From positions 1 through 63,355 of the forward strand of contig JAIBCK010000005.1 in assembly GCA_019694215.1 (NCBI GenBank): 63,355 bases of DNA. Direction: 5' to 3'. Source of the stretch: Thermoflexales bacterium. Lineage in GTDB: Bacteria > Chloroflexota > Anaerolineae > J036 > Brachytrichaceae. Under the pieces are notes generated by a model. That model was not told where the DNA came from and made no database searches. It saw nothing but the letters and a program-made list of their open reading frames with translations. Shown piece after piece: positions 53,931-61,245 of the stretch. The stretch's first letter is position 1. Every line of letters begins with the position of its first letter. The position numbers and the translations under genes were made by a program.

Positions 53931-53962
53931 GTGGCACGCGGGTGCCGCAAGGAGGGAGTGGC

Positions 53963-54994
53963 ATGCTACGGATCGGAATCTTCGGGGCAACGGGCTACAC
54001 CGGGCTGGAGCTGGTGCGCCTGCTGCAAAACCATCGCCAGGCCCGCCTGGTGTTCGCGCACTCCGAGAGCAACCCCGGCGCAAAACTGTCGGACATCATT
54101 CCCTGTCTGTACGATGTGCCGCTCATCAAGGCCGATGACGCGCCCCTGGCGGATGTCGACGTGGTCTTCTCCTGCCTGCCGCATGCCGCCTCCGCGGAGC
54201 TGGCGGCCCGCGTGCTCGCGGCCGGGAAGAAGGTCGTCGACCTTTCGGCCGATTTCCGTCTGACCAATGCCGCGGTATACGAAAAAACCTACAAGCATGT
54301 GCACCCGCACCCGGAGCTGCTCACCCGGGCGGTGTATGGCCTCCCCGAACGCTACCGCGAACGCATCGCGCAGACGGACCTGGTCGCCAATCCGGGCTGC
54401 TATCCGACCAGCACGATCCTACCGGCTCTGCCGCTGCTGGAGGCGGGTGCCCTGGCCGAGCCCGTCCTCATCGCGGACAGCAAGAGCGGGGTGAGCGGCG
54501 CGGGGCGCAAGCCCAGCACCACCACGCACTTCGTCGAGGTAAATGAAGGCCTGACCCCGTACAACGTCGCCAACGTCCACCGGCATGTCCCCGAGATCGA
54601 CCAGGTCCTGAATGACATCGACAACGGGCGCACGCCGGGTGGGGTGAACGTGATCTTCACGCCGCACCTGCTGCCGATCAGCCGCGGCATGCTCACGACG
54701 CTCTACGTGCGCCTGACGCCGGAGGCGCGCCAGACCGACTGGCAATCCGTCTTCGAGAAGCGATATGCCAACGAGCCCTTCGTGCGCGTCTTGCCGCGCG
54801 GGCAGACCGCCTCGATCGCGCATGTGGCGCGGACGAACATGGCCGCGATCTCCCTTCATCCGTTGGGCGGCGCCGTCGCCGACCGCCTGCTGCTGGTGTG
54901 CGCCATCGACAATCTCACCAAGGGCGCAAGTGGCCAGGCGCTGCAGAACATGAACCTGATGTTCGGGCTGGATGAACGGGAAGGGCTGCGCTAG
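53963..54994 (+). CDS. argC: N-acetyl-gamma-glutamyl-phosphate reductase
   Basis: Third step of arginine synthesis: reduces N-acetylglutamyl phosphate with NADPH to the semialdehyde. It is 343 residues, with IGIFGATGYTGLELVRLLQNH at the N-terminus and the active site NPGCYPTS with Cys146. The pattern SKSGVSGAGRKP and FTPHLLPISRGMLTT follow. AGGAGGGAG (53950-53958) supports the ATG. First structural gene of the operon, after the attenuator. Confidence 0.97.
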   Translation: MLRIGIFGATGYTGLELVRLLQNHRQARLVFAHSESNPGAKLSDIIPCLYDVPLIKADDAPLADVDVVFSCLPHAASAELAARVLAAGKKVVDLSADFRLTNAAVYEKTYKHVHPHPELLTRAVYGLPERYRERIAQTDLVANPGCYPTSTILPALPLLEAGALAEPVLIADSKSGVSGAGRKPSTTTHFVEVNEGLTPYNVANVHRHVPEIDQVLNDIDNGRTPGGVNVIFTPHLLPISRGMLTTLYVRLTPEARQTDWQSVFEKRYANEPFVRVLPRGQTASIAHVARTNMAAISLHPLGGAVADRLLLVCAIDNLTKGASGQALQNMNLMFGLDEREGLR

Positions 54995-56257
54995 GTGACG
55001 CGGGTGCTGCGGCGCGGGCTGCTCGCGCTCGGGGTGTTTCTGTGCGCGCTGGCCGGGGCGGCGCTGCTATGGCTCAACGTGCGCCTGGTCGCCACGCCCG
55101 CCAACGCCTATCCCGCAGGCGGGCTGGGGCCGGATATCGTCGCCCAGCTCGACGGCATCGGGCGACGGTTGCGCGCCGGCGAAGGGCGCGAGATGCAGGC
55201 GATCTTTCCCGAGGGCTGGTTCTTCAGCCACATGACGTATGGCTATGCCTGGGTCAACGTTGGGCTTGCGACGGGTGACCCGGCGCTGCGCGCCCGCGCC
55301 ATCGCCGAGACGCGCTGGGTGCTGGAACGCGCGGACAGCCCGGAGGGGCTGGCGCCCTTCACCCGAGCCACACAGGTGCCGCATGGGGTGTTCTATCTCG
55401 GTTGGACAAATCGCCTGCTGGGGGGGCTGTTGCTTCTGCAGGCGCCCGCCGAGCGCAGCACCGCGGATCTCGCCCGGCTGAAGACGCAATCGCGCCAGCT
55501 GGCCGACGCGATGCGCGCCAGCCCGAGCGGCAACCTCGACGCGTATCCCGGCCAGTCCTGGCCGTGCGACAACGTCGTCGCGTTGGCCTCGCTGGCCGCG
55601 CATGACGCCGTGTTTGGCCCGACCTATGCCGACGTCATGGCGCGCTGGGTGACGCTGACCCGGGCCCGTCTCGATCCCGCCACCGGGCTGATCCCACATG
55701 CCGCCAACGCCGCGACGGGGGTGGCGACCATCGGGCCGCGGGCTTCGACCCAGGTGTACATCCACGCCTTCCTGCCCGAGGTCGACGCCGCCTTTGCGCG
55801 CGAGCAATACGCCCGCTACCGCGAAGTCTTTGTCACCTCGGTCGTCGGCTTCCCGGTCAGCCTGGAGTATCCGAAGGGCAGCCGCGGGCAGGGCGATGTC
55901 GACACCGGCCCGCTCGTGCTTGGCATCGGGCCCTCGGCCACGGTGGTCGCGATCGCATCGGCGCGCGCCAATGGCGATGGTCCGCTGGCCGAACGCATTA
56001 CGGTCCTGAGCGAGCTGTTTGGCTTCCCGGTGACGAAGGCACAGGGCAAGTCGTTCGCTCTTGGCACGCTCGTGGTTGCGGATGGCTTTCTGGCGTGGGG
56101 CAAGAGCCTGCTGCCGTGGACGGCGCCGGCGCCGGCGCTGTCCGATGATCCTGCCAGCCTGCGCCTGCCGCTGCACCTGATGTCGCTCGCGTTGTTGGCT
56201 GGCATCACGGTTCTTGCGCTGCGGATGATCGCCACGTTGAGAAGGAGGAAGGCGTGA
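54995..56257 (+). CDS. Unknown membrane-anchored protein, likely alpha/alpha barrel
   Basis: 420 residues that I do not recognise as an arginine enzyme. The N-terminus is a membrane helix (GLLALGVFLCALAGAALLWLNV); the C-terminus has a second one (LHLMSLALLAGITVLALRMIATL) with a positively charged end. Between them are repeated helical pairs, such as FFSHMTYGYAWVNVGLATGDP, GWTNRLLGGLLLLQ, PCDNVVALASLAAHDAVFG and GDVDTGPLVLGIGPSATVVAIASA. The pattern suggests an (alpha/alpha)6 toroid, as in some lyases or linalool-dehydratase-like proteins. The GTG start directly follows the argC stop; the end overlaps the next gene (GTGA). So it is part of the operon. Confidence 0.7.
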   Translation: MTRVLRRGLLALGVFLCALAGAALLWLNVRLVATPANAYPAGGLGPDIVAQLDGIGRRLRAGEGREMQAIFPEGWFFSHMTYGYAWVNVGLATGDPALRARAIAETRWVLERADSPEGLAPFTRATQVPHGVFYLGWTNRLLGGLLLLQAPAERSTADLARLKTQSRQLADAMRASPSGNLDAYPGQSWPCDNVVALASLAAHDAVFGPTYADVMARWVTLTRARLDPATGLIPHAANAATGVATIGPRASTQVYIHAFLPEVDAAFAREQYARYREVFVTSVVGFPVSLEYPKGSRGQGDVDTGPLVLGIGPSATVVAIASARANGDGPLAERITVLSELFGFPVTKAQGKSFALGTLVVADGFLAWGKSLLPWTAPAPALSDDPASLRLPLHLMSLALLAGITVLALRMIATLRRRKA

Positions 56258-56769
56258 CGGGTTCAAATCCCCTGGACGGCTATGCCATTGTCGAGGCTGT
56301 CGCGCCCGAGCAGGTCGAGGCGGTGCGCGTCCTCCTGCGCGAGTACATGACCGAGCAGGGGCTGAATCCGGTCAGCAGCAAGCGCGCCTTCGAGGACCTG
56401 CTGAACCTGCCAGGCCGCTACCGGCGCCCGCAAGGTCGGCTGCTGCTGGCCCTGCAGGATGGCGCCCCGGTCGGGTGTGGTGGGCTGACCGATGTCGTGA
56501 TCAACGGGCGCGTCGCGCCAGGCTGGTGCGAAATGAAACGGGTGTATCTTTCTCCGTCCGTGCGCGGCGGCGGTCGTGGCCGCGCGCTGGTACAGCGGCT
56601 GGTCGACGAGGCCCGCGCCGCGCGCTATGTGCGCGTGGTGCTGAGCACGCGGCGGCGCTGGGTGAGCGCGTTGGCGCTGTATCGCGCCATGGGCTTTCGC
56701 GAGAGCGAACCTTTCAAGACACGTCCCGACGACATGGCGGACCTGACCTTCATGGCCATCGATCTCTGA
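56254..56769 (+). CDS. GNAT family N-acetyltransferase (arginine operon, free form)
   Basis: 171 residues with a full GNAT fold. The acetyl-CoA motif is RGGGRGRALVQRLVDEA, and the end includes YRAMGFRESEPF. It shares with the next gene's first domain the patterns LPGRYRRP and ESEPFK. So these two probably arose by duplication. Starts with GTG overlapping the previous stop, with AAGGAGG upstream. It may acetylate glutamate, ornithine or another amine; I cannot tell. Confidence 0.8.
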   Translation: MTGSNPLDGYAIVEAVAPEQVEAVRVLLREYMTEQGLNPVSSKRAFEDLLNLPGRYRRPQGRLLLALQDGAPVGCGGLTDVVINGRVAPGWCEMKRVYLSPSVRGGGRGRALVQRLVDEARAARYVRVVLSTRRRWVSALALYRAMGFRESEPFKTRPDDMADLTFMAIDL

Positions 56770-56778
56770 CCAAGCGCA

Positions 56779-58053
56779 ATGGAAATCCTCGAAGCCAAAA
56801 CTGATGCCCATTTCGACGCCGTACGGCGCCTGCTGGCCGCCTACATCGCCGAGCATGGCTTCAGCCCGAACACCAGCAGCATCTTTCGCGATCTGGGCGA
56901 TTTGCCCGGGCGCTATGCGCCGCCGGATGGCGCGCTGTTTCTCGCCGTGCTGGGCGAGGAGCCGATTGGCTGCGTGGCGCTGGCGGCCAGCGCGGATGGC
57001 ACAGCCGAACTGAAGCGACTGTTTGTCTCACCGCCGCGCCGGGGCGCGGGGGTGGGTCGTGCGTTGTGCCAGGCCGTCATCGCGCACGCCCGCGAGACGG
57101 GTCGCCCGCGCCTGGTGCTGAGCGCGCGGGCGTCGTGGACGCCGGCCGTGTCGCTGTTCACGTCGCTGGGCTTCATTGCCACCGAGCCCTTCAAGCCGCT
57201 CAAGCCCGTGGACATGATTTTCATGGGGTTGGACTTGTCGGCGACCGCGCCACGGCCCGCCGAGGACGCTTCCACGGTCGAGGTTTACAAGGTGAGCGGC
57301 AGCGACCTGGACGATCCCGCCTTTGCCGCGACCCTGGCGCGCGAGCTGGCCACCCGCTGGCGGGATGGCACGCGCCTGGTGCTTATCCACGGCGGCGGCA
57401 AGGAGCTGACCGAGCTGCTGACCGCGCTGCAGATCCCGACGCGCTTCTCCGAAGGGCTGCGGGTGACGACGCGGGCGGGGCGGGATGCCGCGCTGATGGT
57501 CCTGAGCGGGCTGGCCAACAAACGCCTCGCGGCGGCGCTGATTCAGGAGGGCATCCAGGCCATCGGCGTGTCTGGCGTGGATGCCGGCGTGGTGCGCGTG
57601 GAGCGCATCAACGACGAGCTTCAATACGTTGGGCGTCCCGTTTCGGTGCGGGCCTCGACGCTGCGGGCCTGGCTCGAGGGCGGCTGGCTGCCCGTCATGG
57701 CGCCGATGTCGCTGGGCGTCGATGGCGAGATCTACAACGTCAATGCCGACCACGTCGCCGGTGCGGTGGCCGCGGCGCTCGGCGCAAAGCTGCTCACCTT
57801 CATCACCAACGTGCCCGGGGTGCTCAACAAACGCATGGAGCTCATCCCAACCCTGACCGCCCGCAAGACCGAGGCGCTGATTGCCGATGGCGCAATCTCG
57901 GGCGGGATGATCCCCAAAGTGCGGACCTGTCTGGAGGCCCTCGACGCCGGGGTCACCCGCGTCCGCATCACCAACCTTGCTGGCGTGAGCGCCGGCAAAG
58001 GCACCGTGTTCATACCGGCAGGCCAGGACGCCGTCGCCGAACCAAGTTCCTGA
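56779..58053 (+). CDS. argB: GNAT-acetylglutamate kinase fusion protein
   Basis: 424 residues. The N-terminal domain (about 1-155) is a GNAT with RRGAGVGRALCQAVIAHA and FTSLGFIATEPFK. The C-terminal domain (about 165-420) is an amino-acid kinase: VYKVSGSDLDD, VLIHGGGKELTELL, VTTRAGRDAALMVLSGLANKR, NVNADHVAGAVAAALGA, FITNVPGVL and SGGMIPKVRTCLEAL. This fits N-acetylglutamate kinase. If the GNAT makes N-acetylglutamate, one polypeptide would do the first two steps. Known fusions (NAGS/K of some bacteria and fungi) have the kinase first; here the order is reversed. No LysW-like carrier gene is nearby, so the arginine role is favoured. Confidence 0.85.
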   Translation: MEILEAKTDAHFDAVRRLLAAYIAEHGFSPNTSSIFRDLGDLPGRYAPPDGALFLAVLGEEPIGCVALAASADGTAELKRLFVSPPRRGAGVGRALCQAVIAHARETGRPRLVLSARASWTPAVSLFTSLGFIATEPFKPLKPVDMIFMGLDLSATAPRPAEDASTVEVYKVSGSDLDDPAFAATLARELATRWRDGTRLVLIHGGGKELTELLTALQIPTRFSEGLRVTTRAGRDAALMVLSGLANKRLAAALIQEGIQAIGVSGVDAGVVRVERINDELQYVGRPVSVRASTLRAWLEGGWLPVMAPMSLGVDGEIYNVNADHVAGAVAAALGAKLLTFITNVPGVLNKRMELIPTLTARKTEALIADGAISGGMIPKVRTCLEALDAGVTRVRITNLAGVSAGKGTVFIPAGQDAVAEPSS

Positions 58054-59415
<1,362 letters not shown>

Positions 59416-59418
59416 GCC

Positions 59419-61245
59419 GTGACCGACGCCGCACAACCAGACATCTCCATCCGCGCAGCGACGCTCGACGATGCGCCGGCCATCGCGCGCCTGGTGGCGG
59501 AAAACGCCCGGCGCGGCGGACTGCTGCCGCGCAGCGAAGCGAACATCCGCGCCACCATCGACAACTTCCTGGTGGCTGTGGTCGAGGGTCGCGTGGCGGC
59601 GTGCGGGTCGCTGCTCCCGATGAGCGCCAACCTGGCCGAGCTGCGTTCGCTGGCCGTCGACGAGAGCCTGCGCGGGCGCGGCGTCGGCCAGCTGCTCGTG
59701 GCGCGGCTGATCGAGGAGGCGCGCGCGCGCCAGTTCTCGAGCCTGTTCGCGCTGACCCGGGCGATCTCGTTCTTCGAGCGCTGCGGGTTCGTCCAGACCC
59801 CCAAGGAGAACTTTCCCGAGAAGGTCTGGAACGACTGCGTAGCGTGCCCGCTGCTGGCCAACTGCGATGAAGTCGCGGTGACTTACGAGCTCGATGACGC
59901 GCAGGAGGCGCCTGTGCGCGCCGAGGACTTTTCCATGCAGGAGCCCGGCCAGCTGCTGGCCGAGCGCAGACGGAGAAAGACCATGACCAAACGTCCCACT
60001 GTCAACAAGGTCGTGCTTGCCTACAGCGGCGGGCTGGATACCACCGTGATCGTGCCGTGGCTGCGCGAGACCTACGGCTGCGAGGTGGTTTGCTTCATCG
60101 CCGACATCGGCCAGGGCGACGACCTGGACGCGGCCCGCGACAAGGCCCTCAAGAGCGGTGCCACCCGCGTCGTGATCGAGGATCTGCGCGCCGAGTTCGC
60201 GCGCGAGTATCTCTTCCCGCTCGTCCAGAGCGGCGCCGTGTACGAGCGCCACTACCTGCTGGGCACGGCCATCTCGCGTCCGCTGATCGCAAAATACCAG
60301 GTCGACATTGCCGCGCAGGAGGGCGCTGATGCGGTCGCGCACGGCGCAACGGGGAAAGGCAACGACCAGGTGCGCTTCGAGCTGACCTACATGGCCCTCA
60401 ACCCGCGCCTCAAGGTCATCGCCCCGTGGCGCGAGTGGAACTTCAAGGGCCGCGAGGACCTGATCGCCTATGCGCGCAAGGCGGGCATTCCGCTGGCGCA
60501 GGGTGTCAAGACCGCCTACACAAGGGATGGCAACCTGTGGCACCTCAGCCATGAGGGCGGCGACCTGATCGACCCGTGGAACAGCCCGAGGGAGAACGTT
60601 TTCGAGCGCACCGTCGCGCCCGAGGCCGCGCCCGACATCGCCGACGAGGTCGAGATCGAGTTTGTCTCCGGCGTGCCACGACGCGTCAACGGCAAGAGCA
60701 TGGGCGCGGCCGAGATCGTCATGCTGCTCAACGAGTACGGCCTCAAGCACGGGGTGGGGCGCGTCGACATGGTGGAGAACCGCCTGGTCGGGATGAAAAG
60801 CCGCGCCGTTTATGAGACCCCGGGCGGGACCATCCTCAAGGTCGCCCACGAGGGGCTGGAACAGCTCATTCTCGACCGCGAGACCATGGCCTTCAAGCAG
60901 ATGGTCGCGCTCAAGTTCGCCGACCTGATCTATGATGGGCGTTGGTTCACACCGTTGCGCGATGCCCTGCAGGCCTTCATCTCGGTCACCCAGCGCGATG
61001 TCACCGGCACCGCCCGGGTGCGGCTCTTCAAGGGCGTGGCCAGCCTGGCCGGGCGCAAGGCCACCTACTCGCTGTATCGCGAGGACCTGGCCACGTTCGC
61101 GCGCGAGGACGTCTACAATCAGCGCGATGCCGACGGCTTCATCCGCCTGTTTGGCCTGCCGATGCGGGTCAAGGCCCAGGTGGACATGAACCGCGTCGTG
61201 CGCGCAGCACCGCTGGGGCCGGGTGCCTCGGACAAACGCGACTGA
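59419..61245 (+). CDS. argG: Short N-acetylglutamate synthase fused to a second argininosuccinate synthase (common type)
   Basis: 608 residues in one frame. Residues about 1-160 are a short NAGS-type GNAT: IRAATLDDAPAIARLV, LRSLAVDESLRGRGVGQLLV, FALTRAISFFERCGF and the diagnostic VWNDCVACPLLANCDEVAV. Residues about 195-600 are an argininosuccinate synthase of the common type: VVLAYSGGLDTTVIVPWL, FIADIGQGDDLDAARDKAL, HGATGKGNDQVRFELTY and YTRDGNLWHLSHEGGDL. The linker has an in-frame ATG at 59983 (MTKRPTVNK) with GGAG about seven bases upstream, so free synthase could also be made. The GTG start follows the previous stop by three bases. Confidence 0.88.
   Translation: MTDAAQPDISIRAATLDDAPAIARLVAENARRGGLLPRSEANIRATIDNFLVAVVEGRVAACGSLLPMSANLAELRSLAVDESLRGRGVGQLLVARLIEEARARQFSSLFALTRAISFFERCGFVQTPKENFPEKVWNDCVACPLLANCDEVAVTYELDDAQEAPVRAEDFSMQEPGQLLAERRRRKTMTKRPTVNKVVLAYSGGLDTTVIVPWLRETYGCEVVCFIADIGQGDDLDAARDKALKSGATRVVIEDLRAEFAREYLFPLVQSGAVYERHYLLGTAISRPLIAKYQVDIAAQEGADAVAHGATGKGNDQVRFELTYMALNPRLKVIAPWREWNFKGREDLIAYARKAGIPLAQGVKTAYTRDGNLWHLSHEGGDLIDPWNSPRENVFERTVAPEAAPDIADEVEIEFVSGVPRRVNGKSMGAAEIVMLLNEYGLKHGVGRVDMVENRLVGMKSRAVYETPGGTILKVAHEGLEQLILDRETMAFKQMVALKFADLIYDGRWFTPLRDALQAFISVTQRDVTGTARVRLFKGVASLAGRKATYSLYREDLATFAREDVYNQRDADGFIRLFGLPMRVKAQVDMNRVVRAAPLGPGASDKRD

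Follow-up and report, generated by a model that had tools for sequence, protein, structure and literature searches.

A GNAT domain precedes a predicted N-acetylglutamate kinase in a conserved fusion protein from a Chloroflexota family

Introduction

Glutamate acetylation is the most variable step in arginine synthesis, and fusions have been a main clue to the origin of the enzymes that catalyse it. The arginine locus in a 63,355-nucleotide stretch of DNA from a Thermoflexales bacterium (hereafter the window), an uncultured relative of the green non-sulfur bacteria, raises the question of what a GNAT acetyltransferase does when it is joined to the front of N-acetylglutamate kinase (NAGK, ArgB) rather than to its end. 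An earlier note on this DNA had singled out the span 56254-58053, which holds both a free GNAT gene and the fusion; the fusion alone occupies 56779-58053. Here, we ask whether the fused GNAT is the N-acetylglutamate synthase (NAGS) of the pathway or something else, and how the fusion may have arisen.

Results

The locus holds three GNATs in one operon, one free, one fused to ArgB and one fused to ArgG, as the earlier note had it, with the third forming the N-terminal part of the reading frame at 59419-61245, ahead of an ArgG portion that scores 582 against PRK00509 (cut-off 334; Table 1). ArgJ is also encoded in this genome. The start codon of the free GNAT gene overlaps the stop codon of the preceding gene (GTGA). 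The product of that preceding gene matched nothing in Pfam or NCBIfam, and among PDB sequences aligned with 6tft over residues 129-282 (E 3.9e-06); no counterpart was found in the arginine loci of relatives among the matches listed.

Table 1. Features of the arginine locus, in window coordinates
Feature	Position	Strand	Basis or remark
argC, N-acetyl-gamma-glutamyl-phosphate reductase, first in the gene run	53942..54994	+	TIGR01850, 375.1 bits (cut-off 233.6)
Membrane-type protein between argC and the free GNAT	54995..56257	+	Weak likeness to linalool dehydratase-isomerase
Free GNAT (GNAT1), 171 aa	56254..56769	+	Pfam Acetyltransf_1 at 48-148, 51.7 bits
GNAT-ArgB fusion, one open frame, 424 aa	56779..58053	+	
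GNAT domain of the fusion (GNAT2), residues 1-152	56779..57234	+	Acetyl-CoA motif RGAGVG
Linker of the fusion, residues 153-167	57235..57279	+	Alignment; shorter in relatives
ArgB domain of the fusion (predicted N-acetylglutamate kinase), residues 168-424 and stop	57280..58053	+	TIGR00761
First of two ArgG, argininosuccinate synthase, PRK05370 type	58075..59415	+	PRK05370, 811 bits (cut-off 657)
Third GNAT (NAGS-like, residues ~9-158) ahead of the second argininosuccinate synthase, PRK00509 type	59419..61245	+	

Within the fusion, Pfam places Acetyltransf_1 at residues 47-132 (53.9 bits; cut-off 20.7) and AA_kinase C-terminal to it at residues 169-399 (134.8 bits; cut-off 24.9). The GNAT thus precedes the kinase, as had been claimed, which is the reverse of the AAK-GNAT fusions described in the available portions of PMC1865377 and PMC4490483. 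GNAT1 and GNAT2 are about 42-44% identical; alignment confirmed that they have LPGRY and EPFK in common, and the acetyl-CoA motif (R/Q)xxGx(G/A) is present in both, as RGGGRG in GNAT1 and RGAGVG in GNAT2, placing the two by sequence in the GNAT superfamily. An alignment of 15 fusions revealed that P-G-x-Y, E77-x-K-R and R88 of the GNAT half are invariant, and dN/dS over 12 pairs was 0.07-0.31 for the GNAT half versus 0.08-0.32 for the ArgB half. Purifying selection on the GNAT half matches that on the kinase half in strength. As dN/dS is low and the motifs are invariant, the GNAT domain is probably live.

The genome containing the window is a draft of 184 contigs, and a frame error or chimeric assembly could have joined two genes only on paper. 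This is very hard to believe given that the fusion is a single open frame in 15 of the 16 genomes that bear it, including the single-contig genome G021, with identical domain order and trees that match within genera. In G006 a contig end interrupts the fusion gene, which is split between two contigs. Recurrence of the fusion in 15 further genomes refutes the artefact for the family: as 16 of the 28 family genomes have it, it is no assembly error.

The kinase half matched the argB model TIGR00761 at 203.8 (cut-off 151.3), but as the LysZ-type kinase of the same genome also passes this model (211.2), the match alone is not decisive. Against the LysZ model NF010659 (cut-off 223) the fusion scored 111.6 and the C114 kinase 411.9, and LysX was found in a relative's cluster matching that of the C114 kinase; by these scores the fusion kinase does not qualify as a LysW-aminoadipate kinase (LysZ). 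Residues K171, G205-G207, R228, N320-D324 and K380, which we take, after E. coli NAGK, to be the catalytic lysine, the glycine-rich loop, the arginine of GLRVT, the NVNAD motif and the C-terminal lysine, are invariant in all 15 aligned fusions. Seven amino-acid kinase loci are present in the genome, and since the other six are a LysZ-type kinase, an aspartokinase, a glutamate 5-kinase, a UMP kinase, an isopentenyl phosphate kinase and a carbamate kinase, the fusion kinase is its only NAGK candidate. The best Foldseek match of the fusion model was 2buf. The C-terminal half is accordingly predicted to be the working N-acetylglutamate kinase of the organism.

The fused GNAT half did not match any NAGS model at cut-off (PRK07757 29.3, cut-off 154; PRK07922 21.4, cut-off 180; CG3035 19.9, cut-off 280), classical NAGS models match the fusion in its kinase half only, and the best NAGS-type score of the free GNAT was 19.1 (PRK07922). 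The third GNAT, although under every cut-off, scored 153.1 with PRK07757 (cut-off 154), 116.6 with PRK12308, 90.5 with PRK07922 and 72.0 with PRK05279, and its best PDB matches were the amino-acid acetyltransferases 5yge and 5yo2 and the NAGS 2r8v. Its DCxxCPxxxxCDExA motif is present in all 22 ArgG-fusion loci examined and its L-L/M-P/A-R motif in 21 of the 22. In ngNAGS, according to the available text of PMC4490483, the carboxylate-binding residues are Arg316, Arg425 and Ser427; by eye, a counterpart of Arg316 is present in the aligned third GNAT, while none of the three was seen in GNAT1 or GNAT2, a comparison tempered by human NAGS using other residues. The GNAT half also has, again by eye, a glutamate corresponding to the ngNAGS base. 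The third GNAT, on ArgG, is most likely the N-acetylglutamate synthase of the pathway, judging from its sequence.

The best sequence neighbours of GNAT1 and GNAT2 are YsnE (1yx0), 3lod and similar GNATs, and by sequence the two group with general GNATs whose substrates are unknown or mixed. The substrate of a GNAT is poorly predicted by the family model that it matches. The strongest NCBIfam match of the free GNAT was ArsN1, at 32.6 bits far under its cut-off of 170; arsinothricin, the ArsN1 substrate, is a glutamate analogue. A model of GNAT1 (mean pLDDT 92.8) found 3lod as its best structural match (Z 19.4, 2.2 Å over 143 residues) within a common GNAT fold of many near-tied rows, phosphinothricin acetyltransferases among them, that indicates no substrate; no NAGS entry was among the best 50 matches, which excludes nothing.

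The ArsN1 and phosphinothricin acetyltransferase matches favour a reverse-order NAGS-kinase, in which N-acetylglutamate made by the GNAT half would be phosphorylated by the ArgB half, the known kinase-synthase enzymes having been reinvented independently from another GNAT subfamily. One chain would then cover pathway steps 1 and 2, in keeping with its stable inheritance under purifying selection, and the Km of short NAGS for glutamate is reportedly very high, leaving room for a better enzyme (PMC4490483, available text). O-NAGS, in the same source, is a case of NAGS activity arising in GNATs that do not belong to the classical NAGS family, so that failing the NAGS models leaves room for that activity here. 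We nevertheless hold a reverse-order NAGS-kinase to be doubtful, as the genome already has a NAGS-like GNAT and ArgJ, the GNAT half lacks both a NAGS-model match and a visible Arg316 counterpart, and 9 of the 26 family genomes with this ArgB carry it without a GNAT domain.

Modelling of the fusion gave a pTM of 0.65, at which domain packing is not trustworthy, with linker residues 156-164 at pLDDT below 50. As the best 50 fold matches of the fusion were all kinase or kinase-fold entries, that search was uninformative on the GNAT. Another reading makes the GNAT half regulatory or structural: by sensing acetyl-CoA, or by acetylating ArgB or a partner, it would tune the kinase and make no metabolite. 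The GNAT occupies the place of the N-terminal helix of arginine-sensitive NAGKs, and the ArgB domain is without the arginine-binding motif of those enzymes described in the available part of PMC4490483, so that feedback must have another source. The GNAT-free ArgBs of relatives, their C-termini compared by eye, are also without the motif, which separates loss of the motif from the fusion; together with the unstructured linker and the retained GNAT active-site motifs, this makes a regulatory role improbable.

A survey of 28 family genomes from the Chloroflexota, whose named relatives are Roseilinea, Thermoflexales and Anaerolineae MAGs, revealed the fusion in the window's genome and 15 others, inherited stably within genera g6, g7 and g8 in the trees. 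In one genome, G004, the GNAT and ArgB genes are unfused and the GNAT stop overlaps the ArgB start (ATGA). Nine have a bare ArgB, and ArgB of this type was not found in two. The bare ArgB of G011 begins with codons near-identical to those of the fusion and then jumps to the kinase, and it groups among the fused g6 ArgBs in the tree (100/99): it keeps the scar of a deleted GNAT. Since G011 lost the GNAT half, that half appears dispensable. The ArgG-fused GNAT is retained in G011; this, the ArgJ already in the window's genome and the good NAGS-model scores of the ArgG-fused GNAT alone argue against the proposed sharing of glutamate and ornithine work among all three. In a hand tally, no ArgJ turned up in 3 of the 17 genomes whose GNAT is either fused or adjacent (G004, G013 and G023), and all nine with a bare ArgB have it, too few genomes for a link between ArgJ loss and the GNAT to mean anything.

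In a scan of 400 genomes of the phylum, full-length single-frame matches were restricted to the window's family, the sample holding three such fusion genomes including the window's own. A named scan covered 80 of 306 relatives; because its queries were two kinase peptides, it would not pick up GNAT-first fusions in which the ArgB is of another type. One ArgB-synthase-ArgG triple fusion was also met in this lineage.

A GNAT domain tree of 25 rows, from which the long-branch free GNATs G141, G180 and G073 of an earlier 28-row tree had been dropped, placed the free and fused GNATs of the window as sisters (81/71), weakly suggesting that the tandem pair are each other's nearest kin. Of the proposed tandem duplication and re-fusion, the sister pair therefore stands, with this weak support, while the direction does not: as the fusion is present in other genera, the free gene may just as well be a copy taken from an older fusion. 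Constraining all 16 fused GNATs to one clade without free ones was rejected (p-AU 6.4e-06), but the clade became acceptable (p 0.205) once the window's free GNAT, the GNAT next to ArgB in G004 and the free GNAT of G014 were added; the tests thus leave either a single fusion event followed by splits or at least two fusions. Placing GNAT2 of the window with the g6 fused GNATs was also rejected (p 0.018, one of six tests, uncorrected). We suggest that a GNAT gene first lay between argC and argB with its translation coupled to that of the neighbouring gene, a route for which we count the ATGA overlap in G004 as support, and that stop loss or a small indel then joined it to ArgB. Such recruitment, of a GNAT from beyond every known NAGS family, could also have given rise, perhaps repeatedly, to a reverse-order NAGS-kinase that now stands beside the ArgG-borne synthase, a history that we judge unlikely.

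Discussion

With moderate confidence, we interpret the fusion as a working NAGK carrying a live but accessory, dispensable GNAT that is not the NAGS of the pathway, a role that most likely belongs to the third GNAT. The label accessory is suggested by sequence similarity and by loss in other lineages; as a counterpoint, joining pathway steps 1 and 2 would explain such a fusion most simply. Acetyl-CoA would bind the GNAT half at the (R/Q)xxGxG loop and a small substrate resembling an amino acid would be acetylated on its amine, the conserved glutamate on the strand before that loop being the likely base, while the kinase half would phosphorylate N-acetylglutamate by itself.

The present case is a kinase-acetyltransferase fusion in the opposite order, conserved in close relatives, with a GNAT from another subfamily; these relatives preserve both the unfused neighbour pair and the deletion scar. 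A lineage with ArgB, ArgG and triple fusions offers a test bed for whether such fusions serve substrate channelling or merely record gene order. Neither a GNAT-first ArgB nor a GNAT-ArgG fusion was described in the titles and abstract openings searched, a scope that takes in few subscription journals.

The bifunctional NAGS-K of Xanthomonadales also unites NAGK and GNAT domains in a single protein of the arginine operon, with the kinase N-terminal and a DUF619 acetyltransferase C-terminal, and makes N-acetylglutamate; its marine alphaproteobacterial relatives lie outside the activity assays of that study (PMC1865377, available portion). In contrast, the protein described here runs from GNAT to kinase and its GNAT, of another subfamily, matches Acetyltransf_1. 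Classical NAGS (ArgA of E. coli and N. gonorrhoeae) likewise joins an amino-acid-kinase fold to a GNAT, but its kinase-fold domain comes first and its NAT domain binds both substrates, whereas the kinase domain here matches ArgB and the GNAT matches no NAGS model. The third GNAT appears to be of the same kind as H-NAGS (ArgH-GNAT of Moritella and Vibrio) and S-NAGS (Rv2747), in which a pathway enzyme is joined to a short NAGS (PMC1382215 and PMC4490483, as far as their available text goes), although the enzyme joined to it is ArgG and the order is GNAT first; the ArgB-fused GNAT does not belong to this kind. YsnE and 3lod, the nearest neighbours of GNAT1 and GNAT2 in sequence, are free single-domain proteins. 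The 203-residue 'ArgA' of X. campestris is a free gene, likened here by description rather than by sequence, yet it too is a GNAT of unassigned role whose arg operon includes another NAGS. As it showed no NAGS activity on assay (PMC1865377, available portion), it provides a precedent for a non-NAGS GNAT in an arg operon.

A conserved GNAT-ArgB fusion with the acetyltransferase domain in front

The last 10 kb of the window carry, on the + strand, a close-packed gene run from argC through FdhD. The earlier note had described a GNAT domain ahead of the amino-acid kinase in one ORF with a free GNAT upstream, and this was borne out by the ORFs and by the Pfam domain order, in which Acetyltransf_1 (residues 47-132) precedes AA_kinase (169-399). 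The membrane-type gene starts immediately 3' of the argC stop, the start of the free GNAT overlaps the stop of the preceding gene, and 9 bases separate the free GNAT from the fusion. The adjoining argininosuccinate synthases (58075-61245) are of two types, as in most relatives' arg loci.

Genes of the arg run
Feature	Position	Strand	Remark
argC	53942-54994	+	
Membrane-type protein	54995-56257	+	inside arg run; weak likeness to linalool dehydratase-isomerase
Free GNAT	56254-56769	+	
GNAT-ArgB fusion	56779-58053	+	
ArgG	58075-59415	+	PRK05370 type
GNAT-ArgG fusion	59419-61245	+	ArgG of PRK00509 type
CorA, then FdhD		+	3' of GNAT-ArgG fusion

Full-length single-frame matches were confined to the window's family in searches of 298 genomes of the class (free GNAT query) and 400 of the phylum (fusion query). 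The carriers with names are MAGs of Candidatus Roseilinea, Thermoflexales and Anaerolineae, all Chloroflexota. Within the family the fusion occurs in 16 of 28 genomes, including G006, where the gene is broken at a contig end and its two parts lie on two contigs. G004 has GNAT and ArgB as unfused neighbours, nine genomes have a bare ArgB, and an ArgB of this type was not found in G001 and G019. The reverse-order fusion is a real and conserved family trait; no description of a GNAT-first ArgB fusion was found in titles, abstract openings and selected passages of the literature. In G063, from another family of the class, a single open frame (L228:5660-8365) encodes ArgB, a NAGS-like GNAT and ArgG, with kinase then GNAT in the conventional order (Pfam), followed 3' by an ORF that is ArgJ-like by eye.

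The fused kinase as the candidate N-acetylglutamate kinase (NAGK)

Seven amino-acid kinase loci are present in the window's genome, six of which NCBIfam assigns to LysW-aminoadipate kinase, aspartokinase, glutamate 5-kinase, UMP kinase, isopentenyl phosphate kinase and carbamate kinase. As the argB model also accepts the LysW-type kinase (211.2 bits), it is insufficient alone to tell the two apart; the LysZ model (cut-off 223) scored the LysW-type kinase at 411.9 versus 111.6 for the fused kinase, leaving the latter as the only NAGK candidate of this draft genome. The residues that are catalytic in E. coli NAGK were invariant in 15 of 15 aligned fusions, and by all the computational tests made the kinase half is a NAGK.

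ArgJ, transcarbamylases and ASL_C2 proteins are also encoded in this genome, as is an ArgD-type aminotransferase that adjoins LysW-type genes and may instead serve lysine. LysY- and LysZ-type genes on the genome's contig C114 (L074) and in a relative's locus L077, the latter with LysX, point to LysW-dependent lysine synthesis alongside the arginine genes.

Origin and loss of the fusion

In G004 the GNAT stop and ArgB start share an ATGA, so a small slip would be enough to join the two genes. The bare ArgB of G011 (L058:8803-9588) begins with codons near-identical to the relatives' fused GNAT start (ATGAGCATGGAGATCGTTGAG versus ATGAGCATCGAGATCATCGAG), a remnant of about 11 residues, and continues directly into the kinase; it falls among fused ArgBs in the tree (support 100/99), and its GNAT domain was apparently lost by in-frame deletion. 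The tandem duplication and re-fusion proposed earlier is weakly favoured as to the duplication, the window's free and fused GNATs being sisters at 81/71. A clade of all fused GNATs without free ones was rejected (p-AU 6.4e-06) but one including three free GNATs was acceptable (p 0.205), so there may have been one fusion or more. In G430 (L222:5426-5896) and G651 (L223:5252-5710), of another family, a GNAT of unlike subfamily lies between argC and argB, so GNATs have probably entered this spot at least twice.

Roles of the three acetyltransferases

A split of duties among the three GNATs, also proposed earlier, is favoured only for the ArgG-fused GNAT, by its N-acetylglutamate synthase (NAGS)-like scores and PDB matches. 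The ArgG-fused domain scored 153.1 bits with PRK07757, just missing the cut-off of 154, 116.6 with the ArgH-GNAT model and 72.0 with classical NAGS, and its best PDB matches were 5yge/5yo2 and N. gonorrhoeae NAGS. Its DCxxCPxxxxCDExA motif, present in 22 of 22 ArgG-fusion loci, closely resembles the tail that PMC1382215 shows for Arg(A) of Moritella. An L-L/M-P/A-R motif occurs in 21 of the 22, its arginine aligning with N. gonorrhoeae NAGS Arg316 under a PDB chain numbering offset derived by eye. This domain is a better NAGS candidate than the ArgB-fused GNAT. A NAGS-like GNAT precedes ArgG and is fused to it in all 22 family loci examined (the window and 21 relatives); a NAGS-ArgG fusion was not found in selected passages of the review literature.

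With PRK07757 the ArgB-fused GNAT scored 29.3 and the free GNAT had no listed match, and both fall among general GNATs, YsnE and 3lod being examples. Over 12 fusion pairs, dN/dS was 0.07-0.31 for the GNAT half and 0.08-0.32 for the kinase half, by simple counting with synonymous sites close to saturation in several pairs. Given these values and the acetyl-CoA motif present in both window GNATs, the first arginine of which (R88) is invariant in aligned fusions, a decayed GNAT half is unlikely. The strongest NCBIfam match of the free GNAT, far below cut-off, is arsinothricin acetyltransferase, and phosphinothricin acetyltransferases are among the fold neighbours; as both substrates are glutamate analogues, a glutamate-like substrate is possible for the free and fused GNATs. 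Most likely, the GNAT half would be an accessory acetyltransferase recruited from the adjoining gene and dispensable in some lineages. Against denying it a NAGS role weighs the precedent of O-NAGS, in which, according to PMC4490483, GNATs outside the NAGS family can make N-acetylglutamate. The non-NAGS reading of the fused GNAT has its parallel in the GNAT of the X. campestris arg operon, which had no NAGS activity when assayed, as stated in PMC1865377.
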